Positions 2,421 through 12,073 of a DNA stretch of 30,544 nt are shown piece after piece. The notes under the pieces are model-generated. The model saw only the letters and a list, made by a program, of their open reading frames with translations, was not told the origin of the DNA and searched no databases. The position numbers were made by a program, and so were the translations under genes. The stretch is from a virus, in the IMG/VR virus record IMGVR_UViG_3300005613_000285, positions 1 to 30,544 of that record; one strand, 5' to 3'. Within the stretch, counting starts at the first letter, position 1. Every line of letters starts with the position of its first letter.

Positions 2421-4067
2421 ATGATAACACCGCGACCATACCAACTTGATGCGCTTGGGGCCCTGCACAATCACATTTGCACGAAGGAGTCCAATCCGTG
2501 CGTTGTGATTCCTACAGGCGGCGGCAAGTCACTCTTGATTGCATGGAGTATTCAGGGATGGAAAGCTCAAGCTCCGTCTTTTCGGTGCGTAGTGCTTGCG
2601 CATCGGAAGGAACTGATACAGCAGAACTATGAAGAATTCATGGATGTACAGTTCCGGGAGGGATTCGGGCTGACGAATGACATTGGCATTTTCTCTGCTG
2701 GCCTGAAGCGGAAGGACTGGGATGCCTCAATTCTGTTTGCCTCAATTGATTCCATTTACAAGCGCGCCGGCGATTTTGCACCTTTCGATGCGATCCTGGT
2801 TGATGAAGCTCATCGCATTCCGCATAGTGGCGAGGGGAAATACCTCACCTTCCTGAAGGACTGCCGACGGTTCAATCAGAAACTCCGAGTCATCGGCTGG
2901 ACGGCCACCCCCTTCAGAATGAGCACTGGATCGATTTGCCACAAGGATCATTTACTCCATGAGGTGTGCTACGAAGCCGCAGTTACGGATCTTATCAAGG
3001 ACGGATTTCTATGCAAGCTTCGATCGAAAGTTGGGATGGCTTCTCCGGAACTGCGGAATGTGAAAAAGCGCGGTGGTGAATATATCATCTCTTCCCTCGC
3101 TGAAGTTACAAATCGTGACGACCTCATTACTAAGGCCGTAGATGAGGCAGTTCGGATCTTGCGCCACGAGAATCGACGATCGATCATCTTTTTCTGTGTC
3201 GATGTGGAACATTGCCATGCCGTATCGAGAGAACTTCAGCGGCACCATATCTACGCACCGGCGGTAACGGCAAAAACTAAACCAGAGATTCGAGATCGAA
3301 TCGGGGATGACTTCAAGAATGGAAAACTCCACGCTGTATGTAACGTCAACGTGTACACTGAAGGGTTCAATGCAACGTGTATTGACTGCATTGTACTATT
3401 GCGCCCAACTCTGTCGCCGGGGCTCTTCAGCCAAATGGTGGGCCGTGGCTTGCGGTTGCACCCAGATAAGGGTGACTGCTTGGTGCTCGATTTCGCTGGA
3501 TGCATCGACGAGCACGGACCGATCGACTTGTTGGGTACAGGAATGGAAACTCCCCTTGCTACCTGCCTGCAGTGTCGCACTTCTTTTTCTCGCGCGATAC
3601 GAGTGTGTCCTGAGTGCGGCTGGAGTATTCCCAAGCAAGAACTTGATCGACTAGAGGAGGAGGATGCCGAACGCAAGCGGCGAATGCACGGCGACAAAGC
3701 GTCTGATCGTTCGATTCTCTCGAACGCACCAGAAACTCACATTGTCTCAGACGTAAAGGTCAGTCGTCACAGGAAGCCCGGCAAGCCAGATAGTCTCGTG
3801 GTGCGCTACCGTTGCGGGATACGATTCTTCCGGGAATGGGTTTGCCTCAACCATGAGGGATTCGCAGGGCGCAAAGCGCAACTCTGGTGGATTGAACGCT
3901 TCGGTCAGCGAAAGGCGCACCAGGGACGGGCGACTGTTAGTGAGGCCCTGTCGAATTTCCTCACGGAACAAGTACTAAGCGATTACACGAAGTCCATTAC
4001 CGTCAAGCGCGAGGGAAAATACTTTCGGGTCATAGGGTATAATGAACCAATTGGGGGAGCAGCATGA
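2421..4067 (+). CDS. Superfamily 2 DEAH-box helicase with C-terminal zinc ribbon
   Basis: From ATG 2421, placed after the G-rich AAGGGGGGGGAG, the protein has 548 residues. It begins with the Q-motif-like RPYQLDAL, then Walker A PTGGGKS (31-37), DEAH (128-131), TATPFR (161-166), VNVYTEGFNA (309-318) and the motif VI QMVGRGLR (338-345). A zinc ribbon CxxC...CxxC follows (Cys382, 385, 396, 399), and then an uncharacterised C-terminal domain. This is the UvrB/RecG-like phage helicase type (as in T7/T5-like and many siphophages), which unwinds or remodels DNA at forks and recombination intermediates using ATP. An upstream extension of the frame exists but lacks a ribosome site and overlaps the previous gene. 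It shares an ATGA overlap with the primase gene, implying coupled translation. Confidence 0.93.
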   Translation: MITPRPYQLDALGALHNHICTKESNPCVVIPTGGGKSLLIAWSIQGWKAQAPSFRCVVLAHRKELIQQNYEEFMDVQFREGFGLTNDIGIFSAGLKRKDWDASILFASIDSIYKRAGDFAPFDAILVDEAHRIPHSGEGKYLTFLKDCRRFNQKLRVIGWTATPFRMSTGSICHKDHLLHEVCYEAAVTDLIKDGFLCKLRSKVGMASPELRNVKKRGGEYIISSLAEVTNRDDLITKAVDEAVRILRHENRRSIIFFCVDVEHCHAVSRELQRHHIYAPAVTAKTKPEIRDRIGDDFKNGKLHAVCNVNVYTEGFNATCIDCIVLLRPTLSPGLFSQMVGRGLRLHPDKGDCLVLDFAGCIDEHGPIDLLGTGMETPLATCLQCRTSFSRAIRVCPECGWSIPKQELDRLEEEDAERKRRMHGDKASDRSILSNAPETHIVSDVKVSRHRKPGKPDSLVVRYRCGIRFFREWVCLNHEGFAGRKAQLWWIERFGQRKAHQGRATVSEALSNFLTEQVLSDYTKSITVKREGKYFRVIGYNEPIGGAA

Positions 4068-6346
4068 ATTTTCTCGAATGGGCATTGCGATACGCGAAAC
4101 TCGGTTGGGCGATCTTCCCTTGTCTTCCGGGGCAAAAGATCCCAGCAACCAAACATGGCGTTAAAGATGCAACAACTGATGAGGCTCAGATTCGCAAATG
4201 GTGGGATCGGTGGCCAAACGCGAACATTGCCGTTGCATGCGGGGAACCTAGCGGTGTGCATGTTGTTGATATAGATGTAACCGAAGCTGGAGACGTGAAC
4301 GGGTGGAATACTCTCGTTCAACTCAGCAGAACAGGGAAAATTCTTCCCGCAACAGTAAAGCAGGGTACTCCGCGCGGCGGGGCACACTTCTTCTTCCGCA
4401 CGGTCGATCCGCCGGCCAACAAGAACAGTTTCCTGCCCGGGGTGGACATTCGATCGACTGGGTATTACGTCGTAATCGCACCCTCGATTCACCCGAATGG
4501 CGGGCAATACAAATGGGCAGAAGGCTATTCGCCCTGGGATCGTGAACTCGCTGAGTATCCGGACTTTATGCGGCCCAGCGAGAAGCCGGCGCCAGCGCAG
4601 GGTACACCTTTAACGCCACTACCATCGGAGGCGGTTAACGGTGATATTATCCGGCGCGCCAGTGCCTACCTGGCAACCTGCGACCCTGCCATCCAAGGGT
4701 GTGGCGGACATGATAAGCTGCTAAAAGCGGCGATGTACATGGTTCAGGGGTTCCTGCTCCCGGAGGGGCAAGCTTTCGATCTCCTGGCGCACGAGTACAA
4801 CCCGCGATGCGAGCCTCCGTGGAACCTGGGCGACCCGCGGGACGCCAAGGATTTTCGCCGCAAGATAACGGAAGCCATGAAGCTAACTCCTCAGCACCAG
4901 CCAGGCTGGCTATTGGCTGAGGGCGGACATTCGGACGAACCGAGCCTGTTCACACCCGAGGAATTGAAAGCCCTCCTCGATCGTGGGCAAGCCAAGGATG
5001 CGGAGGAGTCCCTCACGCCGCCCACAGTGCTTCAGCAGGAAAGGCTAATTGCCCTTACTGGTAATGCCGATGCTCGCGAGAAGGAACTACACTTTCTGAC
5101 TCGTCCAACCGGGCTACTCGGGGATCTCTGCTCTTGGATCAATAGCTGTGCCAGGAAACCGCAGCCCTGGCTTACGCTGGGCTGTGCAATTTCGTTTTTG
5201 GGTGTGCTTTTCGGCCGGAAGGTCGAAGACGAGGACGGGTTGCGAACCAATATCTACTGCATGGGAATCGCGAATTCGTCCGCCGGAAAGAACCATGCCC
5301 CCAAACAGGTGAGGCGCCTCTGTTACGAGGCTGGTTGTTCTGGGCTGATAGGCGGAGATGACTTCGCCTCTGATACTTCAATCGAATCTCGTCTGGAAAA
5401 AGATCCGGCGACCCTGTTCTTGTGTGACGAGATTGGATACCTCTTCTCAGCCATTAAAGGCGGACAAAATCCCCACACTGCCAAAATCGTCTCGCTACTG
5501 ATGAAGTTGTACTCCTCGGCTGATTGTATCTATACGGGGCGTGAATACGCCGATGCCGAAAAGAGGCGAACGCTGGTGGAGCCGCACTGTTGCGTTTATG
5601 GTTACTCTTCTCCGGAAAGTTTCTTCGATGCTCTATCACCGAAAGAACTACAAGACGGGTGGCTTTCCCGGTGCCTGCTTTTCTACTCAACTGATGATCC
5701 AGAGAAGATACGTGATGGCTCCGCGAAGAAGAAACCGATTCCGAAACCCTTGAAGAATCAAGTGAATGCATGGTACGCACATGAACTCGTAAATCCAAGC
5801 ACGATAGACGGACTGCTGACTCCTTACTCGACAGAGATGATGCCGCGCCCTCCCGCTCCTAAGACTGTGTCGACTACAGCAGAGGCGGATCGAGTCTTCA
5901 TTGCTTTTGATCGGGAGGCGATCGAGTTCGGAAGGCAGTATACACAATTGGATTGTCTCTGGAAGAAGGGCGAGGAGAACGCCAGGAAGATCGCACTTAT
6001 CGTGGCCGCTGGAGAAAGTTTCGAGAACCCGGTAATCACTGCTCCAATTGCGGATTATGCCTGTCGGCTAACCAGGAGATTGCTTCTTGATTTCTCCTTG
6101 CGCGTACCGAGTATTTCCATAAACGAAATTGATAAATCGAAACAGAAAATTATCAATCTAATAGACCGTTCCGGAACCACCGGTTGCCGCAACCGGGAGA
6201 TCACACAGCGCACGAGATGGCTTTGCGGGCGTGAACGAAGGGCGCTTCTTGCGGATTTGATTGAGGGCGGGGATATCATTTCGAGAACTTCAGGTAGGAC
6301 TATGAAATATTGGACACCTCAGCATTACGGAAAGAGAAAGGCATGA
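4064..6346 (+). CDS. Bifunctional primase-polymerase fused to DUF3987-type ATPase/helicase
   Basis: The 760-residue protein has an archaeo-eukaryotic PrimPol domain at residues 1-180: Asp69-x-Asp71 (VVDIDV), His108 in RGGAHFFF, and VDIR at 127-130 followed by STGYYVVIAPS. A linker leads to a DUF3987-like P-loop domain with an atypical Walker A ending AGKN near residue 407 and a Walker B LFLCDEIGYLF near 450-460. The last 80 residues resemble a winged helix. Such fusions make primers and drive unwinding at phage forks, and some extend DNA themselves. The start overlaps the helicase stop (ATGA), and the gene ends with another ATGA overlap onto RusA. No separate replicative DNA polymerase is seen in the window. 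Confidence 0.9.
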   Translation: MNFLEWALRYAKLGWAIFPCLPGQKIPATKHGVKDATTDEAQIRKWWDRWPNANIAVACGEPSGVHVVDIDVTEAGDVNGWNTLVQLSRTGKILPATVKQGTPRGGAHFFFRTVDPPANKNSFLPGVDIRSTGYYVVIAPSIHPNGGQYKWAEGYSPWDRELAEYPDFMRPSEKPAPAQGTPLTPLPSEAVNGDIIRRASAYLATCDPAIQGCGGHDKLLKAAMYMVQGFLLPEGQAFDLLAHEYNPRCEPPWNLGDPRDAKDFRRKITEAMKLTPQHQPGWLLAEGGHSDEPSLFTPEELKALLDRGQAKDAEESLTPPTVLQQERLIALTGNADAREKELHFLTRPTGLLGDLCSWINSCARKPQPWLTLGCAISFLGVLFGRKVEDEDGLRTNIYCMGIANSSAGKNHAPKQVRRLCYEAGCSGLIGGDDFASDTSIESRLEKDPATLFLCDEIGYLFSAIKGGQNPHTAKIVSLLMKLYSSADCIYTGREYADAEKRRTLVEPHCCVYGYSSPESFFDALSPKELQDGWLSRCLLFYSTDDPEKIRDGSAKKKPIPKPLKNQVNAWYAHELVNPSTIDGLLTPYSTEMMPRPPAPKTVSTTAEADRVFIAFDREAIEFGRQYTQLDCLWKKGEENARKIALIVAAGESFENPVITAPIADYACRLTRRLLLDFSLRVPSISINEIDKSKQKIINLIDRSGTTGCRNREITQRTRWLCGRERRALLADLIEGGDIISRTSGRTMKYWTPQHYGKRKA

Positions 6347-9556: not shown

Positions 9557-9793
9557 TCATTCCTCGATTACCTCTCGCTTGGCAATTGCAATGTTGTGCC
9601 CTGCCGCCCAGGCGTGCGCATCTTTCCTTGCCGCAGCTACCGTCTTGAATTTCTCGCGACCGTTGATGCACGGAAATGCCACGGTCCTCCTGATCGGTAC
9701 GAGATCCCAAGCGTAGCCTCGTTCTGTGCCGCTAAGGCTCATTTCCCAAACGCTCTCGCAAGCCCGGTGTACGCTAAGTCTCATTTGCGTCAT
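9557..9793 (-). CDS. Small protein encoded downstream of the serine recombinase, unknown
   Basis: The 78-residue basic protein has no recognisable motif; its C-terminal half (residues 45-78) is Ala/Lys-rich and helical. Its ATG overlaps the recombinase stop (ATGA), and it stops immediately next to the methyltransferase gene of the opposite strand. The tight coupling suggests that it is expressed together with the recombinase, possibly as an accessory or directionality factor, but nothing in the sequence proves this. Confidence 0.65.
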   Translation of the reverse strand: MTQMRLSVHRACESVWEMSLSGTERGYAWDLVPIRRTVAFPCINGREKFKTVAAARKDAHAWAAGHNIAIAKREVIEE

Positions 9794-10485
9794 TCCCCTT
9801 CTCCCTTCTGCTGTTGGAAAATTCTTCTAACCGTTCGGGCACTCCACGGCTTGCCGCGGAACGGTCCGAACTCTTCGGTCAGAAGCTCCGCTATTTTGTG
9901 CGACGGACGTCCGAGCCGGCTGAGTTCCCGCATTTTCTCTAGCGCCTTTTGCTCTTGCTCGCAGCGGATCAGCCTCTTGCTATCCTCCGGGTCTCGCATC
10001 CAACCGACCGGCGGCTTCCCGAACCACTCTCCATTTGCCTGCCGGCGCTTCATTCCTCTGCTCGTGGCGTGCCGGATGCGATCTCGCTCATAGGCGGCGA
10101 AGGCCGCGAGGATGTTCGAGAACAGCCGGCCTTCCGGCGTCTCGGCCACCGGGGTTCCGTTGGCGAATTCGATTCGGCCGCCGGCCCGCTCGACTTCGTG
10201 TCGGATCGTCAGGCTGACAAGCATGTCTCGCGCGAGGCGATCCATGGCATCTACCACCAGAACGACTTCGCCCTTGAAGTTCTCGATAGTACGGATCGCA
10301 GCCGAGAGCCCCGGCCGGTCTAAAACCCCCCCACTGGTGTCAGGGTCAGAGAGGGAATTCAGAACTACCCGATACCCCTTCTGGATGCAGTACGCTCGGC
10401 ACCGCTCCTCCTGTTTTTCGCACGAGTCGCATTCCCTGGCGTTCGGCCGGGGGCTGAATCTGGTGTAGATCACGGCTGCGGTCAT
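9790..10485 (-). CDS. Serine recombinase (resolvase/invertase family)
   Basis: The 231-residue protein has the resolvase catalytic domain at about 1-140: YTRFSP with Ser11 as nucleophile, an Arg-rich DRLARD (82-87) and the long helix with AAYERDRI (130-137). The C-terminus (185-225) contains a compact Recombinase-type/HTH segment (GRPSHKIAELLTEEFG...WSARTVRRIF). It is far shorter than large serine integrases (450-600 residues) and has no zinc-ribbon/coiled-coil domain, so it is nearer to resolvases or small transposon recombinases. Role could be integration, dimer resolution or inversion of a phage segment. It lies in a three-gene minus-strand operon with ATGA overlaps on both sides, next to a degraded tyrosine integrase. 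Confidence 0.9.
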   Translation of the reverse strand: MTAAVIYTRFSPRPNARECDSCEKQEERCRAYCIQKGYRVVLNSLSDPDTSGGVLDRPGLSAAIRTIENFKGEVVLVVDAMDRLARDMLVSLTIRHEVERAGGRIEFANGTPVAETPEGRLFSNILAAFAAYERDRIRHATSRGMKRRQANGEWFGKPPVGWMRDPEDSKRLIRCEQEQKALEKMRELSRLGRPSHKIAELLTEEFGPFRGKPWSARTVRRIFQQQKGEGE

Positions 10486-10727
10486 GCCTCTTCCTCCCAG
10501 GGGGGCTTTTTATATTCCGACTGAATCAGCATCTTACCAATCAAAATTGCCCGATACCCGTACAGACACGTTTCCGAAGAGAAATGCTCACAATACACCT
10601 TAGCCTCCGCCTCCGTGGCGAATGCTCTGGGAGTAACGAAACTACAGGTCAGCGTATCGAATCCCTGAATCACCCAAATGATGGGTTTTTCGCAAACGGG
10701 ATCGACTTGTAACTCCACCTTGACCAT
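10482..10727 (-). CDS. Small protein upstream of the serine recombinase, unknown
   Basis: The 81-residue product begins after a strong GGGAGG site on the minus strand (10737-10742 region) and ends in ATGA overlap with the recombinase. It shows alternating beta strands and ends YKKPPWEEEA. No family is recognised. Position as the first gene of the recombinase operon suggests a regulator or accessory. The C-terminal PPW element recurs in two other proteins of the window. Confidence 0.7.
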   Translation of the reverse strand: MVKVELQVDPVCEKPIIWVIQGFDTLTCSFVTPRAFATEAEAKVYCEHFSSETCLYGYRAILIGKMLIQSEYKKPPWEEEA

Positions 10728-10741
10728 GTCAATCCTCCCGA

Positions 10742-10779
10742 CGCCCGCTCAGAATCGATACAGCCGCCAGGAGCGGGCG
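10742..10779. repeat. 9-bp inverted repeat upstream of the recombinase operon
   Basis: CGCCCGCTC at 10742-10750 pairs perfectly with GAGCGGGCG at 10771-10779 across a 20-base loop. It lies 15 bases upstream of the first codon of the minus-strand recombinase operon, so it could be an operator, a recombination half-site pair or a leader hairpin overlapping the ribosome site. Confidence 0.55.
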
Positions 10780-11155
10780 CTCGTTACCCTGGACGGCTCG
10801 TACTGCCTATTCTACTATCGGCGATTCCTGGGCCTCCTGGGACCCCTGACGTGCTAATTCAGTAACCCCCTCAGCAGGTGTATGACACAATACCCATTGG
10901 AGCTAACGGGCAAGAAACCAGTCAGGGGCCACGTACAAATGAGCGAAATCTCCCCAGCACGGACTCGAATGTACGGCGTATTCTCTTCGCCATACCTTCG
11001 CGACCGAAGCGATTCTTGCCGGAGTCGACCTGGTAACGATTGCGGAAATAATGGGACACGCAAATCTCCAAATGCTGTCAACGGTATATCAGCATGTCGG
11101 TAAGCGGCTGGATCACTTGCAATTAGGAATCGAGCGGGCGACTTCGGGGATATGA
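10750..11155 (+). pseudogene. Decayed tyrosine recombinase (integrase) relic
   Basis: The clearest part is 10943-11155: a 70-codon open frame ending in TGA that gives TAYSLRHTFATEAILAGVD..., then EIMGHANLQ and STVYQHV. This is the box II region of tyrosine recombinases with the second catalytic Arg (LRHTF), the His of MGH and the nucleophile Tyr (VYQH). There is no start, and the frame is closed upstream by TGA at 10940. In another frame just upstream (from about 10882) LTGKKPVRGHVQ resembles the preceding integrase segment, so one frameshift probably separates them. A short stretch at 10750-10857 (ALVTLDG, then LGLLG) resembles the N-terminal arm region of such integrases, with the middle missing. 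The first catalytic Arg/Lys region is absent, so it cannot be active. It lies antisense to the flanking genes. Confidence 0.75.
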
Positions 11156-11159
11156 GATA

Positions 11160-11169
11160 ATCACCTCCT
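11160..11169 (-). promoter_or_regulatory. Orphan perfect Shine-Dalgarno AGGAGGTGAT
   Basis: The minus strand reads AGGAGGTGAT, a 10-base perfect complement to the 16S rRNA end, overlapping the stop of the excisionase-like gene. No ATG, GTG or TTG occurs at a useful distance downstream; instead the sequence runs into the end of the integrase relic only 5 bases away. It looks like the left-over start region of a gene that was removed by recombination. Confidence 0.6.
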
Positions 11170-11497
11170 ATGCCGCATCGGCGAGACGCAATCGCCTACT
11201 CGATTGCTTATCGTACGACAAATTCATGAATCGATCAAGTTCTGCCCGTGAGACTCTCACCATTCGGCCTATGCTGAAGGTGGCAATATCCCCCCGCTGA
11301 ATCAAATCGTACACCTTATTACGGCCGCATTGTAACACTTCAGCAACCTCATCCACCGTTAAGGCCGTAATTGGATCTGTCCGTTTCTGGGGGGGTTGGA
11401 GGAGAACGTGAGCGATTGTTAGCACGGCGCTTGTGAGGGGATCACCAACTTCCTTACGAATAGCAGTGAACAATTCGATAGTCTTAATCATTTCCAC
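11168..11497 (-). CDS. Excisionase-like helix-turn-helix DNA-binding protein
   Basis: The 109-residue protein has a MerR/excisionase (HTH_17) domain at about 44-93: LTVDEVAEVLQCGRNKVYDLIQRGDI, then GRMVRVSRAELDRFM. An extra 40-residue helical N-terminus (about 1-35) is seen, as in longer excisionase-like proteins. It probably binds DNA at the attachment or control region, as excisionase or as a repressor/activator of the lysogeny module. Start ATG 11497 is preceded by a weak purine run. It follows the SprT-like gene by 9 bases, so it belongs to the minus-strand operon that begins at 13255. Being next to the integrase relic fits a former Int/Xis pair. Confidence 0.85.
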   Translation of the reverse strand: MEMIKTIELFTAIRKEVGDPLTSAVLTIAHVLLQPPQKRTDPITALTVDEVAEVLQCGRNKVYDLIQRGDIATFSIGRMVRVSRAELDRFMNLSYDKQSSRRLRLADAA

Positions 11498-11506
11498 TCC
11501 GTGTGT

Positions 11507-12073
11507 TTATACGGCACTCATCACGTTGCCACATGGACAAGTAGGAAGTCCCACGTCAAGCCACTTCCGCGTAACGCGCACGAGATACCCGCAGTTCGGA
11601 CACGTCGCCTTGAGTAGGCGCGTCGTCTGCTTCTTATCTTTCGTTGATGGGGAGAGTGTCGCATGCGGATAATGGCCAATCCGTTCGATAAGCCCCTCTA
11701 GCTGCAAAGCCAGCTCCTCGCCAACTGAACTTTCGGACATTTTCCCTTCAAGTCCAACGGCGAGCGCGACCCTGCGAAATGGCGCCTTGTGCCCGCAGTC
11801 TGTACCAACGACCGTATGCACGAGTTCATGCACAAGCGTACCGAGCACTTCTATTGAATCGGAGAGAACTGGGCTGACGAACAATTCGTAATGCCCGTCG
11901 GCTGAGCGCTTGCTACTCCAGCATTCCCCGACGCATCGTCCGCGCTTAGCCGTTGCGCCGTGAGATGGCCAGCCGCAGGACGCCCGGATATGCTCGGGAA
12001 TCTCAGCGTCATGCCGTCTAAACAGTGGTCGCAATGCCTCAATCATCTTCTGAAGCCATTGTTCTCGTGTCAT
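11507..12073 (-). CDS. SprT-like zinc metallopeptidase with C-terminal zinc ribbon
   Basis: The 188-residue protein has HELVH at 82-86 with a further His95 in CGHKAPFRR, the SprT/Wss1-like zincin site, and a C-terminal zinc ribbon (Cys158, Cys161, Cys179, Cys181). Cellular relatives (SprT, Spartan) cleave DNA-protein crosslinks; phage versions are common but untested and could act on host DNA-bound proteins. Start is ATG 12073 inside an ATGA overlap with the upstream gene, with the GGAGG site just before. The window thus has two zincins, this one complete and the short one at 8421-8726. Confidence 0.88.
   Translation of the reverse strand: MTREQWLQKMIEALRPLFRRHDAEIPEHIRASCGWPSHGATAKRGRCVGECWSSKRSADGHYELFVSPVLSDSIEVLGTLVHELVHTVVGTDCGHKAPFRRVALAVGLEGKMSESSVGEELALQLEGLIERIGHYPHATLSPSTKDKKQTTRLLKATCPNCGYLVRVTRKWLDVGLPTCPCGNVMSAV

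Follow-up and report, generated by a model that had tools for sequence, protein, structure and literature searches.

The window analysed here comprises the full length of one IMG/VR virus record (30,544 bases), which is classified as linear and likely to be incomplete. On its minus strand, an operon with an intact small serine recombinase gene and another with an intact excisionase-family HTH gene flank a short plus-strand fragment of a tyrosine integrase gene (Table 1).

Table 1. Features of the locus, in window coordinates unless a relative is named.
Feature	Position	Strand	Evidence or remark
Small serine recombinase, 231 aa, intact	9790..10485	-	PF00239 E 4.2e-30; PF07508 partial
81-aa protein, in operon with serine recombinase	10482..10727	-	L047/L048 homolog 43%; no Pfam or PHROG match
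Conserved non-integrase block, 5' of serine recombinase operon	10767..10873		67-77% DNA identity to L002:3668-3737 (intergenic) and L047:4802-4887
Junction stretch between intergenic block and relic	10874..10972		No significant match found
Open frame 5' of relic	10943..10972	+	No start codon; integrase likeness in last few codons only
Tyrosine integrase relic, 3' end	10973..11155	+	~58 codons, homologous to codons 276-333 of L002 and followed by own stop
Relic box II residues	Arg 10988-10990, His 11057-11059, Tyr 11087-11089	+	Alignment with L002
Excisionase-family HTH gene, 109 aa, intact	11168..11497	-	Convergent with relic; PF12728 E 3.1e-14; TIGR01764
SprT-like protein, 5' of HTH gene, same operon	11507..12073	-	64% to L002:5935-6489; weak PF10263; synteny marker with L002

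The fragment lies in a frame of 70 codons (10943–11155) that matches the Pfam Phage_integrase profile (PF00589, E 3.5e-9) with 37.1 bits against a curated cut-off of 27.1. Residues 8–53 of the frame align with positions 123–169 of the 172 in the profile, which is its terminal part only. PHROG integrase families also match the frame (best E 1.3e-12), and a profile search of the whole window returned no other PF00589 match. Alignment with the intact integrase of the closest relative, here called L002, shows that the second catalytic Arg, the His of 'MGH' and the nucleophilic Tyr are retained. The box I Arg and the catalytic Lys of the beta-hairpin are absent, codons 1 to ~275 are missing, and the codon list holds no in-frame ATG, GTG or TTG ahead of the Arg. 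Judged by its sequence, the frame is what is left of a broken tyrosine integrase gene, its final sixth, and, with the complete catalytic set of tyrosine recombinases absent, a relic rather than a working member; the phage as sequenced would be unable to integrate with this enzyme. A preliminary description of this DNA, which had read here a box II fragment with catalytic Arg, His and Tyr, and a dead tyrosine integrase with an intact serine recombinase next to it, is borne out on both points.

Used as a query against viral contigs, the fragment gave one close match, L002 (70% identity), in the 51.8-kb contig IMGVR 3300017963_000334, whose terminase and serine recombinase are 80% and 78% identical to those of the window. 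A query with the serine recombinase also matched L046, L047, L048 and L049. The L002 integrase gene (L002:4194-5207) is full-length, with 338 codons, and divergent from the serine recombinase gene; L047 and L048 have the same arrangement, with integrase genes of 352 codons. The relic is collinear with the whole gene of L002, between the same phage neighbours; the alignment with phages keeping the full gene, which the preliminary description had proposed, finds intact integrases at the same place in all three. Relic DNA is 73.8% identical to L002:5019-5162 and 71% to L047 (blastn), and the encoded protein is 76% identical to the L002 integrase over 58 codons; DNA homology begins at 10973, and the protein match reaches a few codons further left. 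By profile searches of whole records, those of L002, L047 and L048 each contain a single tyrosine integrase and a single serine recombinase, and those of L046 and L049 a serine recombinase only.

Beyond these, 44 related contigs have the serine recombinase, and the majority of the 44 have no tyrosine integrase. Among the 50 contigs, all with a serine recombinase by construction because that protein was the query, 10 have a tyrosine integrase and the window holds the relic. The tyrosine and serine genes are adjacent in six contigs, divergent in L002, L047 and L048 and convergent in L066, L069 and L070. In a tree of the 50 serine recombinases, the window is sister to L045, which is the L002 contig and keeps its intact integrase (support 100/98); the supported group around this pair also includes L046, L047, L048 and L051.

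We could place the lesion against these intact loci. In L002, L047 and L048, the DNA that aligns with the block at 10767–10873 is intergenic and precedes the integrase start. In L002 this anchor lies at 3668-3737, the gene starts at 4194, and homology to the window resumes at 5019, which is codon 276 of 338; the anchored interval in the window is 1,182 bp shorter than in L002 and 1,064 bp shorter than in L047. One global alignment was set aside since the large gap confounds it. A source for the 99 bp at 10874–10972 was sought in L002, L045, L047, L050, L105 and the rest of the window, with no significant match. Translated frames of 10728–10975, compared with two intact integrases in search of an N terminus or a frameshifted middle, gave nothing above shuffles, and the three frames of 10860–10975 matched the relatives' integrases no better than shuffled sequence (lowest p 0.27). 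As the block aligns with intergenic DNA and the frames do no better than shuffles, the 'earlier frameshifted segment' and the 'N-terminal scrap' of the preliminary description are not integrase and can be discarded.

The conserved block itself could serve as an operator or as a recombination site, or could encode a small peptide. Searches for inverted repeats or for a further copy of 10767–10873, as would mark a site for the serine recombinase, gave nothing convincing. A short frame reading ..LFYYRRFLGLLG.. is conserved in the block, in L002:3668-3737 and in L047:4802-4887.

Two motifs recur upstream of intact integrases. Direct repeats of TGTC[AT]CC form two clusters in L002, L047 and L105, at about −316 to −270 and −66 to −51. 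There are 13 copies upstream in the three phages against a shuffled maximum of 2, and the 8-mer GACTTACG occurs in 8 of 13 integrase upstream regions from phages and host loci, again against a maximum of 2, counts whose significance is somewhat overstated because both motifs were chosen by eye from the same sequences. It is the shared positions and the recurrence at several loci, rather than the counts, that carry the motif argument. GACTTACG directly follows the tRNA 3' end in several host loci. No T-arm motif and no tRNA were found when tRNA 3' ends were sought in the phage regions upstream of the integrase, and the attP reading therefore draws on the repeats and GACTTACG. The two motifs are candidate recognition sites of this integrase family, and by position and recurrence they would be its arm and core sites within a candidate attP. 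Neither is present near the relic. Candidate-site regions upstream of integrases were noted in L002, L047, L105, L111, L114, L116, L117, L119 and L120.

The gene convergent with the relic scores 48.4 bits with TIGR01764 against a cut-off of 28.8, which places it in that family, and in L002, L047 and L048 a homolog adjoins or lies close to the 3' end of the intact integrase; the excisionase-like gene previously noted on the far side of the fragment is thus confirmed as such. No homolog was detected in the other loci searched, which have neither this integrase nor the relic. The same convergent integrase–HTH pair occurs at 5998-7444 in L105 (IMGVR 3300028840_005768, a 106-kb contig of a different phage), where the integrase is 65% identical to that of L002 and there is only a distant resolvase-like gene, ~79 kb away; this contig gives the strongest support for the pairing. 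Among 392 sampled Planctomycetota genomes, 9 carry integrases of this family at E <1e-30; of the 10 Planctomycetota integrase loci read, 6 showed a convergent HTH gene and 7 a tRNA gene immediately upstream of the integrase. The recurrence of the HTH gene beside the integrase in L105 and in these chromosomal loci indicates that the two form a cassette. Hence, the HTH gene of the window is the surviving half of the lost tyrosine system and does not belong to the serine recombinase. From this conserved adjacency, we infer that it encodes the excisionase, a candidate recombination directionality factor that would have been orphaned by the deletion. Separately, the presence of the cassette in L105, a different and larger phage, is evidence of its movement between phages, and one Planctomycetota chromosomal integrase of this family (L111) is interrupted by a single in-frame TGA.

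Decay of the relic was sought by dN/dS and by a relative-rate test. Between relic and L002, over 58 codons, synonymous sites are saturated and dN is low, so most of the divergence predates truncation, when the gene was still constrained. The relative-rate test was not significant, with 7 unique changes in the relic against 4 (p 0.55), and 4 of 36 residues invariant in three intact integrase proteins are changed in the relic. With no significant acceleration, only recent loss is visible, not decay.

The serine recombinase is smaller than the large serine integrases. The invariant Ser and Arg motifs are present (YxRFS and DRLxRD are conserved), and dN/dS of 0.14–0.20 indicates that purifying selection keeps the gene intact. 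The PF07508 match covers positions 2–52 of 102 only, about half of the recombinase domain. An AlphaFold model (pLDDT 90.8, pTM 0.58) ends after the recombinase-domain helices, and its best match among solved folds is Bxb1 integrase (9iu2), of which it resembles the first half. The protein has an intact serine recombinase catalytic domain; at 231 aa it is without the full recombinase domain, zinc ribbon, coiled coil and length of ~450–600 aa of large serine integrases of the Bxb1/phiC31 type. Its coexistence with true tyrosine integrases suggests that it does something other than integration.

We take the observed homology, the gene order common to the relatives, the coexistence of both genes there, the deleted interval and the absent start as marks of a lost tyrosine-integrase system: two systems coexisted and one was lost by deletion, not swapped, a reading to which we give a probability of roughly 87%. 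The ancestor, probably a Planctomycetota phage, would have had two separate systems of site-specific recombination next to each other, the small serine recombinase, which was kept, and a cassette of tyrosine integrase, upstream attP-like region and convergent HTH gene. One net deletion of about 1.1–1.2 kb would then have taken the integrase promoter and the first ~275 codons together with the attP-like region, leaving the last ~58 codons, startless, beside the intact, orphaned HTH gene. Aberrant prophage excision or ordinary illegitimate recombination may have been the route; excision of the kind seen in phage TP-778L would, as a conjecture, account for a deletion that spans the attP-like region. 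Against this account, the 99 bp at 10874–10972 have no match and are left over by the deletion model. The window is moreover a 30.5-kb fragment beside the 51.8 kb of its relative, and its unseen part could hold a further integrase; the relative has only one.

The preliminary description had proposed, as one of two possibilities, an exchange of one integration system for another; the serine recombinase would then have replaced the tyrosine integrase and would now integrate the phage. The intact serine gene under purifying selection, its fold match to the catalytic and recombinase domains of Bxb1 integrase and the predominance of related contigs with a serine recombinase and no tyrosine integrase speak for this. 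However, in L002, L047 and L048 the two genes are both full-length and lie next to each other, so the serine gene predates the tyrosine loss and did not enter this lineage as a replacement; it also occurs in the 44 further contigs, and the protein has neither the zinc ribbon nor the coiled coil of phage serine integrases. We therefore regard an exchange as unlikely.

An assembly artefact, by which the locus was collapsed in metagenome assembly although the gene is whole in the phage, is very unlikely. The contig is indeed a metagenome record and its join includes ~99 bp of no identified source, but the two flanks of the join belong to one and the same locus, correctly ordered and oriented, and the relic has diverged from the known intact copies. 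We find it highly improbable that the frame is a functional small gene, such as one for a regulator derived from the integrase C terminus: its 70 codons contain no stop and preserve the box II residues, yet it has no start codon before the motif, its homology stops abruptly inside the integrase domain, and the relatives examined have no separate 70-codon gene at this place. To an origin in a host genomic island, picked up at a recombination joint as had also been proposed, we give almost no credence: Planctomycetota chromosomes do carry related integrases next to tRNA genes, but the best of them are ~29–38% identical to the L002 integrase, against 76% (58 codons) between the relic and that phage copy, none in the 392 sampled genomes is nearer to the relic than L002, and the relic is collinear between the same phage neighbours.

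Loss by deletion of one of two coexisting systems has known counterparts. One integrase of each catalytic type is found in S. aureus phage TEM126 and in Gordonia phages (PMC6507118), which resemble L002, L047 and L048 in combining recombinases of the tyrosine and the serine type in a single genome; here, in contrast, the serine protein is of the ~230-aa form, and its tyrosine partner in the window is dead. Integrase loss by recombination and deletion has been described for staphylococcal phages 3A and StB20-like (PMC6507118), and S. thermophilus TP-778L provides a case of aberrant excision of a prophage at an integrase gene that is truncated (PMC3952083). In these phages an integrase system was likewise lost or damaged by deletion or recombination; they are other phages of other hosts, whereas the window still has a defined 3' relic and the partner HTH gene. 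Both the loss of integrases by deletion and the carriage of one integrase of each type are therefore already known, and the event is an ordinary one in phage evolution. What the locus adds, owing to unusually good relatives, is a clear and directional case in which, of two recombination systems that coexisted, a phage lost one. The integrases of L002, L047, L048 and L105 share a homologous C terminus with the relic and each has a convergent HTH gene, with a serine recombinase neighbour in the first three; they are full-length (338–352 aa) with an upstream repeat region, whereas the window keeps ~58 codons.

An integrase relic beside an intact recombinase hence need not signify a swap. Moreover, life-style predictors that count any recombinase would class the phage of the window as temperate. 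The small serine recombinase is present in about 50 related contigs without an established role. Tentatively, the ~230-aa LSR-like serine recombinase could be a core gene of Planctomycetota phages with a non-integration job, beside which a cassette of tyrosine integrase and excisionase with its own attP is repeatedly gained and lost; the window would then capture a loss in progress in a phage that does not integrate. We consider this broader picture possible, at appreciably less than even odds.

As a separate observation, the tyrosine integrases that adjoin the small serine recombinase in L066, L069 and L070, in convergent orientation, are unrelated or distant ones, and the association of the two kinds of recombinase thus recurs.
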